A stretch of DNA of 64,000 bases from Roridomyces roridus (taxonomy: Eukaryota > Basidiomycota > Agaricomycetes > Agaricales > Mycenaceae). The notes below the pieces were generated by a model, which saw nothing but the letters and a program-made list of their open reading frames with translations, did no database searches and had not been told where the DNA came from. Shown one piece after another: positions 4,924 through 58,638 of the stretch. Position 1 is the stretch's first letter. Every line of letters starts with the position of its first letter. The DNA lies in the NCBI GenBank assembly GCA_029378245.1, contig JARKIF010000011.1:186001-250000 (forward strand), read 5' to 3'. A program made the translations under genes and the position numbers.

Positions 4924-6920
4924 TGATACGACTGGTATCCGTGCAGGCGTGAAAACCGCGTAAAATCGAGATTTGGTACGCATACCAGCACCCCTCGATC
5001 TGGTGGTAGAATGATGGGAATAGAGCCGAGCTCCGAGCTGCTATTCAAATGTGTTCACGATGCATTGAGAGAGTTTCCAGTACACTACGCTTGGCTGTTC
5101 GATCAGGAGTCGGCGGTAGTGACTCAAATAGGCTTCCTGCGGGGACTCTGACATGTGGAGATACAATTATCAAGGAGGATCAACAAGCCCAGACAATAGT
5201 CAGTGTTGGTTGAGAGTACAATCAAGTATTCTCTAGAGTCGGCGTGCAGTTGCACAGAGATTGATGTATTAAATCAAGTGGGAGTGCTTTCCTCGAAGAG
5301 ATAGCCTCCGCGGAAGTGTCCGAGATGATGTATACAATTGCTGTTACAGCGGGATGGTCTTGGCACAGTTTACTTTGGAAGATGAATCGAGACGGGTAAG
5401 CGTCTCACTAATCACACAGTAGTTGGTTGGGTTCAATAGAATGTAGATAATTCATAGTGCATAATACATGGGTTTATATACCTGTGGACGAACAGCCTCC
5501 TGAGTCACAGCAAGTCAAGTCTGAGTCAGAAATTAGTAAGGCTGGCGGCTTGCCTGAGTAATACCGAGGCTACGGGGCCGACGTATGCCCGAGGTTCATC
5601 CTACTCCAACAGATGGTGTGTCAAGCGGTTGTTGAGCAGTGTGGACTCGAGCCACAGAGTGGTGTTGCCTTTGCAGTTTAGGATCCGAGAGGAGAGTGAC
5701 CCCGAGGGGTACTTCGCGGACTGAACATCCAGAAAGGAAATGACAAGTGGGCGAGTCGAACTCGTGCACTGGTACTAGTGTTTGATCATGTGATCACGGA
5801 ACGGAGCGGAGCTGCGGCAGACGATCAAAGCGATGATCGGACATCACGGTCTGGACCAGGGCACAGGGTTGGCCCAGGGTTTCACCGCAGTCATGGCTAG
5901 CATGTCAGGATCTGCGCCAAGGCGGAGTTGGACCAATCAGAAGAGCTGTCAAGGAATGACACACACGTTGGGAGCCAGAAATAGCCTCGAGGACATAATC
6001 AGGGTGATGCACACCCGAGGGAAGGGACAATCTTTAGTCATAGTAGTTTAGACACGCCAAGCATGTAGAAAAGTATATAAACCCCACGGAACCTGAGGGT
6101 ACATGATCACATCATGCCCCCCCTTCTAGGGACTCATGGGCATTGGTGTGGTCTTGTGTCTTCCTCGGAGATTTGTTGATTACATTCTTCTTGGTAGTAG
6201 CAATAGAAAAGCACTTGTTTGGGTATAACTGAGGGATCTAAGTCAAGCTATAGACTTCTTGAGTTGTATTGAGTGTGTCTCCTAAGGGCACTACTCTTCC
6301 TACACTTGCATTTAAAGGTACCCGGGCTCTGGTCCAACCTGGGTCAGCTGCAGAAGCATACTTAAGGGGTAGTGGGTTGCCCTCTGCTCTGTAGTTCCTC
6401 TCCATGTTGTATTGGGGTTGTAATTGGTGTGATTTGGTCGATGATAAACAGGAACAGAGTCAATTGGGACTTGGTGGTTCGGGTCATTGACTTCTCGAAC
6501 TGGTTCGAGAACTTGTGTTTTCAATCTACAATAAAATACTATTGCTGCATTGCAAACCCTTGTGTCATATTCGCGTATAAAGCCTTGCAGTAGGCCTCTT
6601 GAAAGAGACATTGTCGGTCCGAGGACTTGTTCGAGAAGCTGAACAAAGACCAAAACCGTTGATATCAAGTGAGCTGTATGCTCCACGGAGTGTGCTTGAA
6701 GTCGAGCGGGACGTTCAATCTTACCTATATACTTTAGGGTGACCCCGAACTCAACCGTAGTCGAAGTTGACTGGCCCTGGCTGGGGTGTTGGATGTTTTG
6801 GTAGTTGGTGTTATGGTGTTGGGGTTTTGTGGGTTTGTTGCCTTTTGGGTAGCACTCTGCAGACTCAGCCATTGCTGCTCCACATTCACACTTCACTGGT
6901 GCGCAGTTACAGACGTTTCA
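4924..6920 (+). mobile_element. LTR-like element, copy A (solo-LTR type)
   Basis: The interval is a long direct repeat of 49094-50917. Both copies start TGATACG and end CGTTTCA, which are imperfect inverted termini with the TG...CA ends usual for LTRs. A TATATAAA box sits at 6074-6081, as expected for an internal LTR promoter. Copy A has about 260 bp near 5354-5613 that copy B lacks and misses about 70 bp present in B. It carries a 194-codon open frame on the minus strand (6312-6896) with no recognisable domain. No gag, protease or polymerase frame is seen, so it looks like a solo LTR or a non-autonomous relic. A target-site duplication is not evident for this copy. Confidence 0.7.
6074..6081 (+). 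promoter_or_regulatory. TATA box inside LTR-like element copy A
   Basis: TATATAAA, conserved in copy B at 50062-50069. It lies about 840 bp before the 3' end of the element, in the position of a U3/R boundary. Confidence 0.5.
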
Positions 6921-7664
6921 ACGGGATCATATCGACTCGGCTGGTTCGAATCCATCCGGTACCATCCGCCAGAAGACGTCGAGCTTTTTTCTCCCTCAGT
7001 CTTCATACAGATCTAGGCTTTAGGGTGAATTGAGTAGTGCCCACGAACACCGACGGGATCGGTGGCAACCTGGGTCCTGCTTCTTTGCATGTCATTGTAG
7101 GCCAATTGTAGGCTGACGCGCGGCAAGGACTGCCGCCGATTGGCGCAATTGCCCCACCTCGGCAATTTCATCAGTTGGTTGGTGGCTCGAGGTCCTAAGC
7201 ATGTTAGCCGGCGGACAACCGACGGAGGTGAGGGAGGGCGAGGGAGATCCCTGTTCCAGGCGGCATAGGACCAAAATTAATGAGAGATTCCCAAAAGAGC
7301 GAAGAGATTGCAAAGATTGCTTGATATAGGAATCAACCCACGGCTCTCAAGGACATTATCGAAACAGTGGGACCCCACCTTGGCAGGGAAACAACCGATA
7401 AGACCGTGCCTAGTTTTTCTAACACTCGGAACACCGATGGGGTCGGTGGCAACCCGCCCAGTGACCGCCCAGAGAAAAGATATATAAGACGTGCTGCCCG
7501 TCTCGCTGCTTGAAATTGGTGCTCTCGAAGCTCAAAATCCCGGAATCTCACAGAGTACAGCAGCTGGTCATCGGCATGCCACACACGGAATATCTGTTGC
7601 CGGTGAGTCCACTGGACCACGCCCCATCCGTATTCTTCCATGAACGCCGTGACTGAGCATCGCC
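6921..7664. repeat. Repeat-rich intergenic stretch
   Basis: Two direct copies of a 27-bp sequence with three differences lie at 7044-7070 and 7428-7454 (core CGGTGGCAACC). The segment 7341-7431 resembles 31645-31741, sharing CCGATAAGACCG and flanking blocks. No gene was recognised here. Confidence 0.55.
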
Positions 7665-47167: not shown

Positions 47168-48745
47168 CAGTCATCTCCCAAACACTCCCGTTCTCACCGA
47201 ACTTGCATCACCGAACGCCATCGCGATTTGATCACGAACCCATAAACGGACAGCTCACCTCCCTCGACCTTATTTGGCAATCCCGCGCTTCCGCAAGTCA
47301 CGCATCCCCACAGTACACTCGCATTTGTCATGCCCCCTCTCCATTCTTCGACCCCTGTGCACATAGCCTCCAGGGCAATGCCAAAAATGCAGACGAACAG
47401 CAATTCGCCGGTGCGAGAGCACTGCTACGGGCTTTTGCACTGGATTTGGCTGTGCCATGATTCCTGGTGACTCTATTTCTATTTATATCACAGCATTTTC
47501 CATCCTCAGATTACGAATCTGCTTATTTATTGGGGACGAATGGCGGACGTCGCGATCGCGGAGCAAAAACTTGAAATGCTCGTCGTAGGCGTTGCGCCGT
47601 CCTTTGGCACCCCAGAGAACGTCCGGGATCCCTTCCACGAAGGGTTCCAGCTCGTCATCGTCTGCGAGGGACAGCATCATCCAACACAGGGCGCGGTAGT
47701 CACGCTCCGCACAGTCTGCAGTCGCCCGTTTGGTCAGCAGATTGACCATTGAGGTATCCCTGGCAGACACCGGTGGGCCTTCCGTGGGTAATAATGCGTG
47801 CGAGAGAGTGCGAATTCGGCGGAAGATTTGCAAGAAGGCGGTGGAGAGTGGTGTTTGGTGCGGACAGTCGAGATAGACGAGCGGAAGGATGGTGAGGACG
47901 ACGTAAACGATGACCATTAGTGCGAGGATGCACCCCGACAGGATCATGATGCTGTGATTCACTGGGATTAGGAAGGCGACGAGGCCGACGTAGAAGCAAA
48001 TCAAGGAGGCGTGGAGGAGCAGGGGGAGAATCTCCATGACGGGAGGCTTCTTGATCCGAACCACCATCTAGGATGGTGCCCGGATTTCCACTCTATAGTG
48101 GCAAGGTCGCTAAGTCGTTGTAACGATGGTCTGGGGTTGGAAACCCGTACCTGAACACGACGAGTGGACTGCACGACGGTCATCTCCCCTGCCGCTGCGG
48201 TGGTATCTACTCCAGAAGTCCCTGGTCCGAGTTCGGATCGCGGAAGTAGTCATTATGGCAGTTTCTCGCTTCCCTCTCACGCCCCCGCTCTCTGCCAGAG
48301 CTGATACGAGCTGGCGCTGCTGTCTCCCCCCGCCGCGGTCGACAACGACGCTGGGCTTATGGGGGGTTTGAGCCACTCCCCGCCACACGCCACTCCACTC
48401 CCCGCTCTCTGACTCACCTCTTGCTTTGTTACGACGGGTCCGATGACTTGGGCAACGTGTATGGGAAAGGCCCTTTCAGCAGGGAGGAGTATGTGAGTTT
48501 TCGGACGCTTTCGACCTTCCTCTCTGACACGCGGCCCACTCTTCAGCATGGACGCACTGCCCCTTTCTTTCACGCCACTTCCTACTCCGGCAACCCACTT
48601 CCAAATGTCCCGCCTCGTTGCATGATTTCGATTCTTTGCGCGGCGTGCCCGACCACACTGTGACTGATATCGAGGGCGACGCTCTCCAGCACCAACGCAC
48701 AGCTTGATAAAACTTTGCTTCACAAACCCCTCTACATACAACAAT

Positions 48746-51700
48746 ATGGTCCAGAAACCCACCAAGTACACAGCCGCTAAGACCCGCCCCACGCTCGCCA
48801 GACGGGTCAAGACGAGCTCTGCGGCGTCCGACTATCATACAGCTGCCGAGGACCAGTCCGTCATCTCTGGCCAGGACTCCGTGACGCCGACCCCCTCCGG
48901 CATTGCTACTCTCGCTGCGGCTGCGGTCGCGGTTGCCGCCCAGAACTCCCTCGACAAATCCCAGAACGGGGAGGGTGAGAACTTTGTCCAAGGAGAATTC
49001 CAGGTGTGTACGCAATACTCATGACAAGAAATTCACTCAGGCACGCTTTGAACAGGCCGTGGTGAATAACACAATCACGGATGGTCCCAACGCTGATACG
49101 ACTGGTATCCGCGCAGGCGTGTAAACAGCGTAAAATCAAGACTTGGTACGCATACCAGCACCCCTCGATCCGGTGGTAGAATGATAGGAATAGAGCCGAG
49201 CTCCGAGCTGCTATTCAAATGTGTTCACAATGCATTGAGAGAGTTTCCAGTACACTACACTTGGCTGTTCGATCAGGAGACGGTTGTAGTGACTCGAATA
49301 GGCTTCCCGCGGGGACTCAGATATGCGGAGATACAGTTATCAAGGAGGATTAACAAGCCCAGACAATAGTCAGTGTTGGTTGAGAGTACAATCAAGTATT
49401 CTCTAGAGTCGGCGTGCAGTTGCACAGAGATTGATGTATTAAATCAAGTGGGAGTGCTTTCCTTGGAAGGGATGGCCTCCGCGGAAGTGTCCGAGATGAT
49501 GTATGAAGTGGCTGTTACAGCTGGATAATGTGTCAAGTGGTTGTCAAGCAATGTGGACTCGAGCCGCGGAGTTGCGCTGCATTTGCACTTTGGGATCAGA
49601 GACGAGAGTGACTCCGAGGGGTACCTCGTGGACTGGTCAAAGTCAGTGTAAAGGTACCAAAAGAGCGGGGCTCACATAGCCGAGTTGGGGGCAATATTAC
49701 CAATTGTTCTGAACATCCAGAAAGGAAATGACAAGTGGGCGAGTCGAACTCGTGCACTGGTACTAGTGTTTGATCATGTGATCACGGAACGGAGCGGAGC
49801 TGCGGCAGACGATCAAAGCAATGATCGGACATCACGGTCTGGACCAGGGCACAGGGTTGGCCCAGGGTTTCACCGCAGTCATGGCTAGCATGTCAGGATC
49901 TGCGCCAAGGCGGAGTTGGACCAATCAGAAGAGCTGTCAAGAAATGACACACACGTTGGGAGCCAGAAATAGCCTCGAGGACATAATCAGGGTGATGCAC
50001 ACCCGAGGGAAGGGACAATCTTTAGTCATAGTAGTTTAGACATGCCAAGCATGTAGAAAAGTATATAAACCCCACGGAACCTGAGGGTACAGGATCACAT
50101 CATGCCCCCCCTTCTAGGGACTCATGGGCATTGGTGTGGTCTTGTGTCTTCCTCGGAGATTTGTTGATTACATTCTTCTTGGTAGTAGCAATAGAAAAGC
50201 ACTTGTTTGGGTATAACTGAGGGATCTAAGTCAAGCTATAGACTTCTTGAGTTGCATTGAGTGTGTCTCCTAAAGGGCACTACTCTTCCTACACTTGCAT
50301 TTAAAGGTACCCGGGCTCTGGTCCAACCTGGTTCAGCTGCAGAAGCATACTTAAGGGGTAGTGGGTTGCCCTCTGCTCTGTAGTTCCTCTCCATGTTGTA
50401 TTGGGGTTGTAATTGGTGTGATTTGGTCGATGATAAACAGGAACAGAGTCAATTGGGACTTGGTGGTTCGGGTCATCGACTCCTCGAACTGGTTCGAGGC
50501 TTGTGTTTGGTTTTCAATCTACAATATAAAAAGACTTATTGCTGCATTGCAAACCCTTGTGTCGTATTCGAGTATAAAGCCTTGCAGTAGGCCTCTTGAA
50601 AGAGATCTAGTCGGTCCGAGGACTTGTTCGAGAAGCTGAACAAAGACCGAAACCGTTGATATCAAGTGAGCTGTATGCTCCGCGGAGTGTGCTTGAAGTC
50701 GAGTGGGACGTTCAATCTTACCTATATACTTTAGGGTGACCCCGAACTCAACCGTAGTCGAAGTTGACTGGCCCTGGCTGGGGTGTTGGATGTTTTGGTA
50801 GTTGGTGTTATGGTGTTGGGGTTTTGTGGGTTTGTTGCCTTTTGGGTAGCACTCCGCAGACTCAGCCATTGCTGCTCCACATTCACACTTCACTGGTGCG
50901 CAGTTACAGACGTTTCAACGCCGGACGTATCGCCCAATATGTGAGTGCCTCGATGTGGTCTGATCAACGGCCCTAATGCCTGTTTAAGGACGAGCGCAGT
51001 CAAAGCGTGGTCAGCGACGTTGCGAGCGTCGTCTCGTACAGCGGCTCCGATGTCGGGCTCAACACCCACTATGGAGTCAACGAAGTCGCCGCCCTCCGTG
51101 GCCAGAGCGTGGTCAGCGATTACACCACGGACACCGACAGCGTCGTTTCGGCCGATGCTCGTGTCGGTGGGTATGCGATCTACACCAATGAAGACGGGAG
51201 GTACGGACGCTTGGAGGACGAGATGGTCGCTGGCACTGGAGGTGGCATACAGGGTGGCTACGTACGTCCTCCTCCCTTCTCGTATACACCCAAACTCATA
51301 CCTCATGCAGATCCAGTCCGGCTCAGAGCTCTCGGACTTTAGCGATGAGTCTCGCCCTGCCTCGCCTGCGGGGGAGGAGGAGGAGATGCTCAACGTCCTC
51401 GTCGCTCGGAGACGCAAAGAGCAGGAGACACAGCGGGTCATCGACGCCAACATTGCCGCCCTCCCCTCCACCCCGAACTCCCCGAACTCCCACGCAAAGC
51501 GCAAGCGCGACGACAAACGCCCACAGCGCCCAGTCAAGAGTGACGTTGAGTCCGAGGATGATTCTGGTGACAAACGCCGTTTCGAGCGCGACATGCGGAA
51601 GGCTGTGGGCCTCTCCCTCCTCCCTCAGCGTGCCCCTCCTGCGCATGGCGCATCTAGCTCCCGTCTCAGCCCTGGCTCACCAAAACGCCAGAAAGCTGAG

Positions 51701-53029
51701 GTACATCGGAGCTATGCCGACGCTGTTTCCACTCCCGCTACGCCGAGGGCTCGTGTGCCCGTTGCATGCGCTCCTGCCGCTTCTGCCCCTCCGGTCTTCA
51801 TGCCCCCAGTTTTTGTGGCTCCTGGACCCGCCGCTCAAGCTCCCGCTGCGGCACCCCCTGTTGCGGTGACACCCGCTCCAGCGCCTGCTCCCCATCCCGC
51901 AGCCAACGCCGCCGCTAGTGCGACTGCCGTTCCCGTCGCTGCCCAGGCACCAGCTGCCGTCGCTGATGCTTATACCTGGGCGACAGTCAACGGTGGCATG
52001 CCGTCCGGCCGCTTCATGCTCATTCGGCATGACACTCTCCCTCTCTGTGGTCGCACCCCCGAGGCGATGCTCGGGCGTCTGCGCGTTGAGATTCTGGAGC
52101 AGTGGGCTGCTGTACCGGGGGTGAAACTCCTCGTCGTGCTGTCCGGGTTTGAAGGGACTACCGGGCAGAAGCGTGAAGCACTCCTGGACATTCTGGTCGG
52201 AGCCACCAATGCCCTCCGTAACTCCTTTGTCATCGGCATCCCTCCCACTGGCAACGACGTCTGGATGGTTGCGGGTCTTCCGGAGAATGTGGCTAACAGT
52301 TTGGTCGCCGCTGGGAGGATTGTCACGACGGGTCGACTTGTCGCGGTATACTCGTTCCAGCCAGCCATCCCCAACTTCCTCGGGTCAATCCTCGGTTTCA
52401 TCGGTTTCACGGACGCTCACCAAGTCTGGCTGCTACTTACCCAGATGCTCCGTGGTAACCGCGCCTTTACGGAATTCATCACTCGTAACAGCGACAACGT
52501 TCCCGCCAACATTCCTGCCGATGAGACTGTGGAGGCAGTGATCAACACCCTTTATGTGCACGCCGTTGAGGTCACCAACCGCTCGGGGCAGGTCAAGCCC
52601 GCCTGGAGTGTCTACATGTATGTGCCGACCTCCTCCGCCGAGGCTTGGGACACTCTTCGCCGCCTTTTCCGCTCCATGTCTCTCGACACCGCTTTCAACG
52701 GGTCTGGCCGCGTTGTCCCCAACTTCCGCTGCCGCATCGACACAGCTACCGACCATGCCACTGAGCACTGCCCGTTGCTTGCGCTCCCCAACTGGATTGG
52801 TCCCACCGTTGCCTCCCTCGATGCCATCCGCGCTGCCAACGCGAACGCCCAGAAACCCCCCCGCGGTGATGCCACCGACTCGATGCTCGGCGGGTCCAAG
52901 CAGATTAAGAAGCAGTGGGGCCCCGACAAACCGAAGGTGAACGCAAAGGAGACGAAGTGGAAGGGGAAGGGCAAGGACCGCTCGGGCTCGGGCAAGTTTG
53001 ATGCTTGGGACCCCAACTCTGACGTCTAG
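48746..53029 (+). CDS. LINE ORF1 (gag-like), three introns, interrupted by an LTR-like element
   Basis: Proposed exons are 48746-49003, 49041-49093 plus 50922-50940 (one exon split by the LTR), 50989-51261 and 51311-53029. They join in phase 0 throughout to about 773 residues. Introns are 37, 48 and 49 bp. The second has GTGAGT, a CTAAT branch site and AAG; the third ends ATGCAG. Read unspliced, each gives a stop or shift. The protein is low-complexity early (A/S/T-rich), then acidic and Lys/Arg-rich, then has a Pro/Ala-rich linker, followed by a folded C-terminal domain around TWATVNGGMPSGRFMLIRHD and IPPTGNDVWMVAGLPENVAN, and a basic tail. No named domain was assigned. It is the ORF1 position of the LINE and should bind RNA. 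Confidence 0.7.
49094..50917 (+). mobile_element. LTR-like element, copy B (solo-LTR type), inside the LINE
   Basis: Starts TGATACG and ends CGTTTCA. The flanking bases ACGC at 49090-49093 and 50918-50921 form a 4-bp target-site duplication. Removing the element and one ACGC rejoins the LINE ORF1 frame (P-N-A-G-R). It is a direct repeat of the element at 4924-6920 and shares a TATATAAA box at 50062-50069. It has a 70-bp segment at about 49637-49706 that the other copy lacks. No retroviral-type coding frame is seen. It therefore inserted after the LINE. Confidence 0.85.
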
Positions 53030-53893
53030 GTATCGTGGTATCTGTTAAATAGATTTTATGTTCCCATGTATGCATTTCAATAAAGATATAAGTTCCTCAT
53101 CCCCTCTCCTGTGCGCGCGTCGAGTTGGGATAAATGTGCACTTTAATTTTCAATTAGAAGTTGACGGGAATCTGTATTGACCAGGGCTACGCGTCGTTTG
53201 AAGGGTAAAGTCGCGGATTCTTACCCACTCTGGTGTAGATACAGTGGCGAGGAGGCCCAAATATACCGACCGTACGCGGGACGGGAAAGCCGAATCGTCT
53301 ATAGAGTTTAGAACTGCGGCGACCCCTCGAGGTCAGGACTAGCCGTGTCGAGAGACTAAAGCGACGGGGAAAGGTTGGGCTCCCATTCTCCCTTCTGAGT
53401 ACCCCAAGCAGGTCCCCCTTGGAGACAGGGATAGTCTACCCCGTACCCGGAGGTGGTGGTTGGCACCCGGACTACGTAGGGCAACTGCGTCAAACACTTA
53501 TGAAAATAATCGGCGCGCGGATGAAACGGTACACGGTTACAGCCTCCCTGGCACCGGAGGGGCTGCGAGTGTCACCGCCACTCACGACCCCAATGACGAA
53601 GCTAGGGAGATCGGTTGCGGACATGCCGGTGGGGGAGTAGAGGAAGAGCGGAGCGAGCGAGAGGAGGTGAGTCGTCAAGAGACGGCAAACCTTCTCCCTG
53701 GCACTGCACGATCTCCAAATCCTGCCCAGCGTCGAAGTACGAGGCACCAGCTGAGGTCAGACGGGAATGCCCATGATGTTGACCGTACGGCACAAACGGA
53801 ACGAGCGAGGCGGGTGCCTCGGGCTTCGAATGCACAGAATAGACACGTACAGAACGAACATGCGGTACACCCGCACACACAGGCGTCGCGTAG
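53030..53893 (+). other. LINE region between ORF1 and ORF2
   Basis: Includes an AATAAA near 53080 just after ORF1. A long plus-strand frame (53460-53966) reads GGGVEEERSEREE and similar charged sequence in a different frame from ORF2; it may be the true upstream part of ORF2 through a frame change, or part of the intergenic linker. Confidence 0.45.
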
Positions 53894-56800
53894 GGAAGGA
53901 GGGCACGTTCCCCCGAGACCAGCGCGACGACAGAGAGGCGTCCCGAGAGGCGACCCTCTTTCCTGACACAGAAGCGACGACGCCAGCAGAAAAGAACAAC
54001 AAGAATATCGCGGAACACAAGGGCCGAGTTCACCTTTGGAGGTTTGAACATCAATGGTCGAAGGAAGAAGTCGATACGACACCCCGAACACAAATGGCAC
54101 GACCTGAACAGACTGCTTTTTGACGAGAAATTGGGGATTCCGGTCATCTCGGAGACGCATATGTCTGCCGAGCAAGTGGACGAAATCCGGGAGAGTCACC
54201 TCAACAGAAGGATGGAGATTTACCATACCTCGTGCCCAGACAATCCAAGCACGAAAGGGGTAGCGATTATAATTAATAAAGAACTACTTAGCGTGCAAGA
54301 TATAGAGGAGATGTGCCTGATACCGGGGAGAGCTCTGATGCTTAAAATTCCTTGGCATATGAAACGAGTCATTACCGTGCTGGGAGTTTACGCACCGGCA
54401 GATTCGGGGGAAGAGAACGCCAAATTCTGGGATGAATTGACCGAAATGTGGTTGCAGAAACCGAACATCGCAGTCCCGGACATCGTGGGCGGGGACTTTA
54501 ATCTCACTCCCGAAATGATTGACCGCCTGCCGCATAGATGCGACCATCCGAGAGCGCTGGAGGCACTGGCGAGATTCAAAACGGTGCTGGGGCTCGGTGA
54601 TGGTTTCACAGCGACGTATCCGGATGAAAAAGCTTACACATATACAAGCACGCGGCAGCCCCCGACTTTCGCGAGGCTCGACTACATCTTAGTCTCCCCC
54701 GAACTGCAGAAGACATGCAGAGACTGGAAGATCAGTGACGCCGCCGGAAACCTGAGTGACCATAAGCTTACAACTGTTCGCATTCGAGCTCCGGGGTCAC
54801 CGTATATTGGGAAGGGGTGTTATGCAATCCCTGAGTTTGTTGTACAGGATGACAGGTATATAGCGGACGTGATTCGCGTGGGCTCGGCACTCGAAGCCCA
54901 TATACGCCCAGACGGGTCGGCGGAAGAAACGCTGCAGCTGGAATATAACAGTTTTAAGGAATACATGAGGGACGAAGGGCGCCGACACGCAAAGGAATCA
55001 AAAGGTGCCACACACCAAAAGAAATGCAAGCTGGCGGCTGAGCGAGATCAGCTCCTGAGTGAGCATGATCCTCCCGGCTCGGAGACGGTTGGCACTGATG
55101 GAATACCTGGCCCCGACCACGAGACCGTGATACGGGACAAATTGGCGTCCGTTGAGAAGAAAATTAGTGAACTGGTTTCACTCGAGAGAGATCGAGCACG
55201 GACCGCGACCAGAGTCGGGTTCCATGGGCAGACGGAGAGGCTGACAAAGTTCTCAGTCAACCTACACAAAGATAAGACCCCGCGTGATACGCTGGATATG
55301 CTTAGAATGACAGACACAGTCCCAGAACAATCTTGCCGGAGATCGGACGAGATGGCCAGCCTGGCCAAGGGTTACTACGAGGATCTACAGTGAGATGAGA
55401 CAGAAACAGACCTGGGAAGAAAGGATAGAGTAATTGAGGAAGTGACGGGCTACCTGGAGTCTCACGCGGGGGAGCCCGAGATGACCGAGCTGGCGAAACC
55501 CGTGTCCGAAGAGAATGTACTCAACGCCCTTGTGCACTCGAAGAAGGGCTCTGCCCCAGGGGTTGACGGAATCCCAAATACCCTTTGGTTACGGCTGCAT
55601 AGAGATTTTGTTAGATCCGAGAAGACGCCGAGAAAAGACAGCGAACCTCGCCCAGCCACCCTAAACATTGTCCGGGTGCTCACTTGTGTCTTCAATGACA
55701 TTGAGCTGAATGGCGTCCGGGAAGGCCACCCTTTCTCGACGGGGTGGATGTGCCCTATACATAAGAAGAAAGACCCAACGGATATTGCAAATTACCGTCC
55801 CATAACAGTACTTAACACAGATTACAGACTGTTCACGAAGGCCCTCTCGAACAAATTGTCGAAAATAGCTCCAAAGCTGATAAACAGGGATCAGGCCGGT
55901 TTCATGAAAGGGCGGAGGATACAGGACCTTGTATACCTGGCTATGGAAGTGGTAGACTACGACGAGGACGATCTGCAGAATGGGGTCATTGTCGCTCTTG
56001 ACCAAGAAAAAGCGTATGATAAGACATCACATAGATATCTCTGGGCTGTCCTACGCCGACTCGGAATTCCAGACCTCTTCATAGACACAGTACAATCCCT
56101 TTATAGGGAAGCGAAGACACACGTAGTGATAAATGGAGAAATAAGCCCCGCTTTTGAGGTGACCCGCGGGGTCCGCCAGGGAGACCCACTCTCCTGCTTG
56201 CTGTTCAATCTAGCAATAGAACCCTTGGCCGAAATGCTGCGCCGGTCGGGTTTCAAGGGATACGAGGTGGACGCGATCGTAAAGAATGTGATTGTCAAGA
56301 TGTACGCCGACGACACTACAGTTTATTTGCATGAGTCGGACAGCTTTGCCGCCCTGCAACAAATTCTAGACAAGTGGTGCTCGGCATCCAGTGCGAAATT
56401 TAATGTGGGTAAGACGGAGATCATACCTTTCGGCACCCCCGAGTTTAGGCGTGGTTTGACTGAGTCACGTATACGGTAGGCTCAACGGTGACGACCAGCC
56501 GATCCCCGAAAACGTGCATATAGCGGCCGAGGGGGAGGCGGTGAGAATTCTCGGAGGCTTCATCGGGAACGGTGTTGACGCCTTCGCCGTTTGGGGACCG
56601 ACAGTAGAAAAGATCGACAGCACAATTGAGAGATGGGAACGAAGCCACCCGACACTAGAATCAAAACGCCATGTTATCCAGATGGCGTTCGGGGGTATGA
56701 CCCAATACCTGGTGATGATGAACGACATGCCTGCAAATTTACTGAAAGGATTAAAGAAATCCATGAGGCGTTTCATAAATGGAGGCCGAGGGTCCGCACC

Positions 56801-58239
56801 GATCAGCCTTGAAATGCTCTCGGAGCCGATTGATAAGGGAGGGAAGAATATCTTAGACATTGAGGCTCGGAACGACGCAATTGCCCTGTTAAAGTTGAGA
56901 GACTTCCTAGACCTGTCGCCGAGACGTACAGAGTGGGCGAGAATAGCAAATAGACGGCTGATCAAGAGGGACGTGAAGGCGTCCAAAGTCGCGGAGAGCT
57001 CATATGTAAGCCCCTTCCTCCAGTCCTGGGCACCGAACTCCCGGAGGTATCCGAAGCATATGAAGACGGCGCTCAAGGCAGCGGATAAGTACGGAATAAT
57101 TTTTGATACGCTAGACCCACCCCCAGAGATCCAGAGAGCGCTCCCGATGTTCCACCACTTCGGTCAGGACTCCTCGAAACGCAAACGAAACAACGGCCGG
57201 GTTTTCGAGTGCCTCAGGGAGAGCCATGCAGTTCAAACCATCGGAGATGGTATGGATGCCGCGATGCGGTTGAACGATCCTGGCCACGTTAACTATGCTG
57301 GCTGTCCCTGTGACGCATGTGAGCACGACCGAGACGATGAGTACTGTAGCAACCCCGATGCGTGCGCACGTTAGCGTCCCAAAGGACCTAAGTCTCCATG
57401 GTGCGAAACTCGCTACGATGACACAGCGACAGCTTTATGTCCAAATCAAAGCCCTACGCGGTAGAGTGGAAAGGCCAGCCACGGTGGCGCGTGTTGCACT
57501 GGTTAGTGAGGCGATTAGGGACGTGACAGGGCAATGGCCGACGGAGGCGCAGGTTTGGAGATCCATCAGACACAAGGACCTCTCGAAAGGTGTCAAATCC
57601 TTCCTGTACAATGCCATGCATGACGCACAAAGAATTGGAAAATACTGGAAGCACATACCAGAGTGCGGTGACAGGGAGATGTGCGTCACATGCGGGGTGA
57701 GGGAAGACCTCGAGCACGTCCTCCTCAAGTGCGAACGAGTAGGACAAAACCAAATATGGACCCATGCGAAGGAACTGTGGCTCCAAAAGCACCCCGACTG
57801 GCCGGAGCTGTCACTAGGGACAGTATTGGGATGCGGGTTCATGACGGTGAAGGACGAGAGAGGTAGGACTCTCACGGGTGCCAGCCGGCTTCTCCGGATC
57901 TTGATGTCCGAGTCTACGTATCTTATCTGGAAGCTGCGGAATGAGTGTGTGATCCGCAATGATGGGGTTGCCCCGAGCGAGCGGGAGGTCTCGCAGTGAC
58001 GGAGGCACTCACTGAATATTCGCCTGGATTTGGACAGAGCTATGGCGAGCAGCTGGGAAAAGTTCCCCGGGAAGCCACTAGCCGTGGAGGTCCTTGAGAC
58101 TTGGGCCTCTGCCCTCGAAGATGAGGACCAGCTCCCCGCAAATTGGATCAAGCACCCCAGGGTTTTAGTGGGTGCCGCGAGGTATCCCTATAGCCCGCCG
58201 ATTCGCCGAGTTACCGACCGGCGCGGCAGGCATAGGTGA
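53894..58239 (+). pseudogene. LINE ORF2: AP endonuclease plus reverse transcriptase, with four lesions
   Basis: Frame opens after a TAG at 53891-53893. The endonuclease domain shows LNINGR, PVISETHMSAEQ, VGGDFNLTPEMID, ARLDYILVSPE and SDHKLTTVRI, the standard motif order for AP-type nicking. The reverse transcriptase shows GSAPGVDGIP, NYRPITVLNTDYRLFTKALS, IVALDQEKAYDKTSH, TRGVRQGDPLSCLLFNLAIE and KMYADDTTVYL, with the YADD catalytic pair. A CCHC motif, CVTCGVREDLEHVLLKC, lies near 57685-57735. Lesions: a TGA at 55391-55393, a one-base shift near 56460, a shift near 57370, and a TGA at 57997-57999. Both TGAs sit where a CGA codon could have decayed. Without them the frame continues to 58239. 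Confidence 0.85.
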
Positions 58240-58414
58240 GCGCGGAACCCCACACTGCCGCTACGGCGGCGTGCAGCTGTGCATTTCCCTGGGCGGTGTT
58301 TCTCATGCTTGGTTGCGGCCCAAACTGGTGCCGCACACATCTACGCGGGGTTGGGGCTGACCTATTGTCTAGTTGCCTCATCTTTGACGATTAAAAATCC
58401 CTATTCGTACCACC

Positions 58415-58437
58415 AAAAAAAAAAAAAAAAAAAAAAA
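58415..58437 (+). repeat. Poly(A) tract, 3' end of the LINE
   Basis: 23 adenines immediately before the right target-site copy. Confidence 0.85.
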
Positions 58438-58638
58438 GAGAATCTCCACGACCGCGTGCATATTGAAGCGTTTGAGCCCATAGTAGAGGTAGGTGTAGAT
58501 CCGTGCGCGGACGACGGGGGCGGAGCGCAGCTCGGATTTGTGCTGGAACTCACGAGCCCATTGTTCCACCAAGGTCGCGATCAGAGCACACGACAGGCTG
58601 AGTCCTAGACTCACAAACCAGAGCGCGTTGCATATGAC

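Follow-up and report, generated by a model that had tools for sequence, protein, structure and literature searches.

Intron-like segments in ORF1 of a mushroom LINE that were probably copied unspliced

Can a long interspersed nuclear element (LINE) carry spliceosomal introns and still be copied through RNA? DNA that arose by retrotransposition should lack introns, and the known LINEs are, to our knowledge, taken to lack them. The question is raised by a 64,000-nucleotide stretch of the basidiomycete Roridomyces roridus, a relative of Mycena (assembly GCA_029378245.1, contig JARKIF010000011.1, positions 186,001 to 250,000 of the forward strand), which is called the window here and in which position 1 is the first letter. 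It contains a LINE whose first open reading frame (ORF1) is interrupted by three intron-like segments. We consider it probable that this is a two-ORF endonuclease-type LINE, that the ORF1 introns belong to the element and are copied unspliced, and that the ORF1 protein is made from spliced RNA.

As inserted, and including a nested element, the LINE occupies positions 48041-58437 of the plus strand (10,397 bp). It is flanked by the target-site duplications GAGAATCTCCATGAC (48026-48040), which lies inside a minus-strand DUF6535 gene, and GAGAATCTCCACGAC (58438-58452), and it ends in a poly(A) tail (58415-58437). Joining the host flanks without the LINE yields one minus-strand frame of 250 amino acids, which matches Pfam DUF6535 (E 5e-26) over residues 3-90, spanning the joint. 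Since the flanks form a single DUF6535 frame and the duplication and the poly(A) tail are present, 48041-58437 is one inserted unit. A first-pass annotation of the window had called the LINE ends exact; the 15-bp duplication and the tail were found, but the two duplication copies agree in only 14 of 15 positions. The 5' end, GGGAGGCTTCTTGATCC, is similar to that of a second LINE family of this genome, family A (...GGGGCTTCTTGATCC). The remains of ORF2 (53894-57999, plus strand) encode an apurinic/apyrimidinic (AP)-type endonuclease (Exo_endo_phos, E 1.2e-07), followed by a reverse transcriptase (RVT_1, E 2.8e-32; both Pfam) and a weak zf-RVT match; they are broken by an in-frame stop at 55391-55393 and by frame changes beyond it. 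The reverse transcriptase, the AP-type endonuclease, the 3' poly(A) tail with its duplication and the kinship of ORF1 to LINE ORF1s characterize the element as an AP endonuclease (APE)-type LINE, which we assume to belong to a Tad1-like clade.

ORF1 is read on the plus strand in four exons. Exon 1 (48746-49003) comprises 86 codons from the ATG and encodes the first residues of the annotated protein P0001. Intron 1 (GT...AG) extends over 49004-49055 (52 bp) according to P0001, or alternatively over 49004-49040 (37 bp); both acceptors, at 49055 and 49040, keep the frame. Exon 2 consists of two parts, 49056-49093 and 50922-50940, which are separated by a 1,824-bp insertion (49094-50917) resembling a solo long terminal repeat (LTR) and which continue in frame at the reconstructed empty site. 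Intron 2 (50941-50988, 48 bp, GTGAGT...TTTAAG) contains an in-frame stop, exon 3 (50989-51261) has 91 codons, and intron 3 (51262-51310, 49 bp, GTACGT...ATGCAG) precedes exon 4 (51311-53029), which encodes the C-terminal part with a motif that we take to be zinc-knuckle-like. Introns 2 and 3 are likewise those of P0001. Three phase-0 introns of 37, 48 and 49 bp had been proposed in the first pass; introns 2 and 3 and all three phases were upheld, and the first intron measures 37 or 52 bp. The accompanying reading of 49041-50940 as exon 2 does not hold, as this stretch is not open and is interrupted by the LTR-like insertion. Without splicing, translation from the ATG at 48746 ends after 92 codons. 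The ORF1 region is 100% identical to the hypothetical protein FB45DRAFT_1081812 of R. roridus.

The coding character of the exons was assessed with a codon model untrained on the window ORF1. Exon 1 reached a z of 4.2, its other forward frames being negative, and exon 3 a z of 3.9; in 51 control windows, the highest z of any of the six frames was 3.1. The controls were taken from the leader, the stretch between the ORFs and two LTR copies, which are related to each other. A model trained partly on the window ORF1 gave z values of 5.0 and 4.5 for exons 1 and 3, respectively. Exons 1 and 3 thus look coding beyond chance. For exon 2, only 51 nucleotides could be scored, which is too short to tell (z 2.2, from a model partly trained on this gene).

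The first-pass annotation had proposed to look for introns shared between copies of the window LINE. Such a comparison was run on a different LINE family of the same genome, family C, and there a segment was found at the same place in all loci. Family C is represented by C240, C2:812583, C13:108670, C442 and C198, in which ORF1 lies in two frames. Between these frames, 5/5 loci contain an intron-like segment of 55 nucleotides, equal in length in all of them; C442 and C198 are so similar, being nearly identical, that they may not count as independent. The segment starts with GTGAGT, ends with GGCAAG or GGCTAG and includes a branch-like site CT[CT]AC. The upstream frame is coding in every locus (z 3.7-4.3, the other two frames scoring -39 to -61), and downstream of the segment the coding frame is a different one. 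A comparison of C240 with C13 gave 14 differences in about 54 sites and two 1-nucleotide indels for the segment. The upstream part showed 32 differences in 394 columns (6, 9 and 17 at the first, second and third codon positions) and indels of 3, 3, 6 and 6, and the downstream part 4 differences in its first 87 columns and 15 (2, 0 and 13) in the next 233. Both family C loci that were checked for insertion marks (C240 and C2) possess a poly(A) tail, and their two flanks have words of 16 and 12 bases in common; some of the terminal bases of these words could be part of the poly(A) tail or of the element itself. As separately inserted copies with poly(A) tails and duplications hold the segment, it was in the RNA that was copied. 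In family C, an intron apparently passes through retrotransposition.

Which upstream frame is the functional one was judged from related proteins. A search with the joined family C sequence retrieved 31 proteins: 28 from 13 Mycena species, the R. roridus protein P0010, and two others. P0010 makes the same join as the family C model, and several Mycena proteins are colinear through the joint, for example with NRYQAIQGVT beside NKYQALQGVT. The three upstream frames of two family C copies were compared, against shuffled sequences, with the 17 of the 31 proteins that extend far enough upstream; P0010 was excluded, as it stems from the same genome. The spliced frame gave mean z values of 2.6 (12/17 above 2) and 2.3 (10/17), the read-through frame 0.04 (1/17) and 0.95 (2/17), and the third frame 0.5 (1/17) and 0.6 (2/17), where the 17 proteins are mutually related and hence are not independent trials. 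Judged by these alignments, it is the joined frame that shows kinship with the Mycena ORF1 proteins. These proteins (P0002-P0032) further display a conserved N-terminal stretch, KLS.HIETDSR..KRKA...NKRLRSASVEPPP, which is preceded by sequence unrelated between the models, a pattern that one more intron with a conserved acceptor at this place would produce.

How closely is the window LINE connected with these elements? In a profile comparison, its ORF1 matched the Mycena ORF1 proteins found with the family C ORF1 (98.9%, 257 columns, E 1.4e-17), the match lying in the part encoded by exon 4. On this profile evidence, both are the same kind of protein; the match leaves out the N-terminal parts, where the introns lie, and says nothing on homologous intron positions. 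When the leader, exon 1, the introns and ORF1 were used as DNA queries against the genome, no second copy of the 5' half of the window LINE was found; apart from the LINE itself, the matches were confined to LTR pieces and a short host-gene stretch. A protein search of the genome with ORF1 exons 1-4 gave nothing but itself below E 0.3, and protein database searches with the window ORF1 returned only this ORF1. The nearest genome relative, C57, has a reverse transcriptase that is 64% identical and lies in an open frame of 1,727 amino acids; its ORF1 precedes ORF2 and is 27% identical to the window ORF1. C57 is truncated at its 5' end inside ORF1, directly after an exact 15-bp duplication (TAGAATGGAAGTGAC; L040:3734-3748, and again behind the poly(A) in L045), and was for this reason rejected as an intron test. 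The C57 LINE has inserted at the stop codon of a small gene of the secreted type (L040:2900-3748, corresponding to C57:881900-882748), which contains short introns and presumably resembles HsbA; a paralogue of this gene seems to be present downstream in L045. The DNA searches had first suggested that the window ORF1 belongs to a gene of the host that adjoins the LINE. This idea was dropped, as the duplication encloses ORF1 and the ORF1 of C57 precedes ORF2.

Two further families were analysed. In family A (L046, L050 and L054-L057), a 45-nucleotide intron-like segment GTGAGA...CAG occurs in 6/6 copies, which have the same start and differ in all six flanks; the copies in C2 and C183 have a poly(A) tail and flank-shared words of 13 and 16 bases, to whose terminal bases the same reservation applies as in family C. 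More than 100 open codons lie upstream of the first ATG and reach the segment. They are coding-like (z about 4) with indels of 3, 3 and 12, and their substitutions (11, 4 and 6) do not favour third positions. No path with one or two introns was found from a conserved ATG; a non-AUG start or a further intron may be involved. In family B, an intron-like segment is present in 3/3 copies; an in-frame ATG past the donor permits an intronless reading, and the first acceptor tried was out of frame. Both families were set aside as proof of ORF1 introns, the need for removal of the segment not being demonstrable. The segment is missing from none of the 14 fetched copies of families A-C. Copy counts from these genome searches are lower bounds, as only the best candidates were scored. 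Eight ORF1 regions were fetched, five of which (L047, L049, L051, L052 and L053) lacked a sense frame of more than 263 amino acids and were left out. In one genome copy search, 13 of 16 matches were short (about 40-85 bases), and in another, 2 of 7 were short pieces of the 5' part, close to loci that the count includes.

The nested element in exon 2 (plus strand) has the ends TGATACG...CGTTTCA and is flanked by ACGC duplications (49090-49093, the last four bases of the first exon part, and 50918-50921). Its 3' end matches 29 other places in the genome (DNA search), and copies have these ends in common. Matching 4-bp flanks were seen in four of the six copies with both ends printed, the one in ORF1 included, and were absent in L006 and L007. 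Judged by these sequence features, it looks like a solo LTR. The window contains a second copy (4924-6923), and the segment 49636-49708 is absent from most fetched copies. In the P0001 model, 49119-50905 (GTAAAC...GCGCAG) is spliced out and a few residues from the LTR-like ends are kept; exonization of these ends is possible. At the 5' end of the LINE, a G-rich start of the type GGG.GGCTTCTTGATCC is common to the LINE families here (48041; L046:2277; L042 near 3619) and perhaps constitutes a functional 5' signal.

Several observations weigh against built-in introns. The evidence for splicing of these segments consists of DNA and of gene models, and P0001 and P0010 are automated models; P0010 moreover continues into other sequence past the shared part. 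The coding score leaves the strand of exon 3 unfixed, as its reverse strand scores higher (z 4.5) than the forward one. In the upstream part of family C, C240 and C442 differ by 11, 13 and 13 substitutions, with no third-position excess, and by indels of 3, 15, 6 and 6, and a plain BLAST of this stretch gave weak matches in all three frames and so favoured none. Exon 2 is open to its end only in C240 among the five loci. The upstream frame has a sole ATG 9-11 codons before the intron and a stop further upstream, and in C240 and C2 the intron itself contains an ATG that is in frame with exon 2. That the genome has no match to the exon-exon joint of family C (30 bases, at most three mismatches) comes from a search without a positive control. 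For the window LINE, of whose 5' half there is no second copy, we infer rather than observe that its introns were inherited. An alternative explanation is that the segments are not introns at all: ORF1 would start at a downstream ATG, and the upstream part would be a leader or would be read by a non-AUG start or a frameshift. Downstream ATGs do exist, at 51305 in the window, overlapping the third acceptor and opening 574 codons, and at the conserved column 1129 in family C, where a shorter intronless ORF1 would be permitted; furthermore, ORF1 of families A and B is readable without splicing, and in family A no one- or two-intron path from a conserved ATG was found. We nevertheless regard this explanation as unlikely. 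The upstream exons are coding, those of family C are related to Mycena proteins in a frame that only splicing joins, and the frame change in family C coincides with a GTGAGT...AG segment that is more variable than its sides.

Three further alternatives were considered. Late intron-like insertions into the window copy alone, for example by introners, were the simpler explanation named in the first pass, and the window LINE indeed has no second copy holding these intron-bearing parts. It is improbable, however, that one element gained three introns when its ORF2 is broken and its duplication copies still agree in 14/15 positions, and repeated copies of introns 1-3 were not found in DNA searches that spanned them, in which segments of about 50 nucleotides may be missed. 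Late insertion is thus very unlikely for the window LINE and is excluded for family C, where separate insertions have the segment in common. Spliced RNA might also be copied, with the resulting copies dead from poor expression, so that only intron-bearing copies leave descendants. This would agree with the intron-dependent expression reported for basidiomycetes (available parts of PMC7017817, PMC4935854 and PMC3744415) and with spliced human L1 copies, which exist and are mostly dead ends (available part of PMC5860796). Dead intronless copies would then be expected, yet none is among the 14 copies of families A-C, a small sample, and no match to the family C joint was seen; we give this scenario little credence. 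Equally improbable is that ORF1 is a host gene domesticated from a LINE which gained its introns in that role. ORF1 is single-copy, annotated as a gene and, unlike the broken ORF2, still open in every exon, but it lies within the duplication with ORF2 behind it, is itself split by the LTR-like insertion, and the mobile copies of family C show the same kind of intron. The proposal of the first pass that an unspliced RNA served as template is accordingly well supported in family C, with 5/5 loci, inserted copies and no joint found, and is plausible for the window copy.

If the introns belong to the element, we infer from the sequences that the segments are removed by the spliceosome and that an unspliced sense RNA is the template. 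The full-length RNA would be reverse transcribed at the target with its introns retained, and daughter copies would have them as well; from a separate RNA, the introns would be removed, and this RNA would serve as the ORF1 message. The ORF2 protein of LINEs prefers the RNA that encoded it, as is established for L1. Because of this preference, a division of labour can be envisaged in which the unspliced RNA, whose ORF1 stops early, is both ORF2 message and template, whereas the spliced RNA is the ORF1 message. The stop after 92 codons in the unspliced RNA could favour ORF2 translation and in this way bind the choice of template to the unspliced RNA. The same could be achieved if unspliced RNA were retained in the nucleus. 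The introns are likely kept since several basidiomycetes need an intron for good expression; intron-dependent expression in such fungi is described in PMC7017817, PMC4935854 and PMC3744415. Hosts can also recognise invaders by their lack of introns, as does HUSH in human cells (available part of PMC8770142). We tentatively extend this to Mycenaceae LINEs in general, with more doubt than the reading of the window element itself: they may follow a retrovirus-like RNA economy in which splicing divides one transcript into the ORF1 message and an RNA, left unspliced, that acts as ORF2 message and template, and may keep their introns because the host expresses genes without introns poorly or treats them as foreign.

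If true, unspliced RNA can be the regular template of target-primed reverse transcription, and introns would let a LINE set the ratio of its two proteins. An intron-bearing LINE could look like a host gene, and the presence of introns would not rule out retrotransposition in such genomes. An earlier report of a LINE with built-in ORF1 introns was not found in the open-access literature, and the available parts of PMC5718144 and PMC2911113 contain nothing on such elements.

The window LINE has in common with fungal APE-type LINEs an ORF1, an endonuclease and a reverse transcriptase, the poly(A) tail and a target duplication close to 15 bp in length. Known LINEs are taken to lack introns; here, introns found in inserted copies interrupt ORF1. 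Penelope-like elements also keep introns through retrotransposition, and the available part of PMC3846280 sets them apart in this respect from all other retrotransposon types. They have a GIY-YIG endonuclease and terminal repeats, whereas the window LINE has Exo_endo_phos and poly(A); a GIY-YIG domain is absent from its Pfam matches. For a LINE with a poly(A) tail, the antisense template that is favoured for Penelope-like elements (same part of PMC3846280) is unsuitable. Human L1 too has splice sites in the 5' part of its RNA (available part of PMC5860796). There, according to the same text, splicing harms the element and the spliced integrated retrotransposed elements (SpIREs) are dead ends; here, ORF1 would depend on splicing, and a spliced copy was not found. 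A further comparison leads outside the LINEs. In retroviruses, unspliced RNA is the template and spliced RNA is the message for one protein. The use of RNA would be alike in the window LINE, which has no LTRs of its own and whose insertion is target-primed. The retroviral spliced message serves env and the like, whereas here it would serve the gag-like gene.

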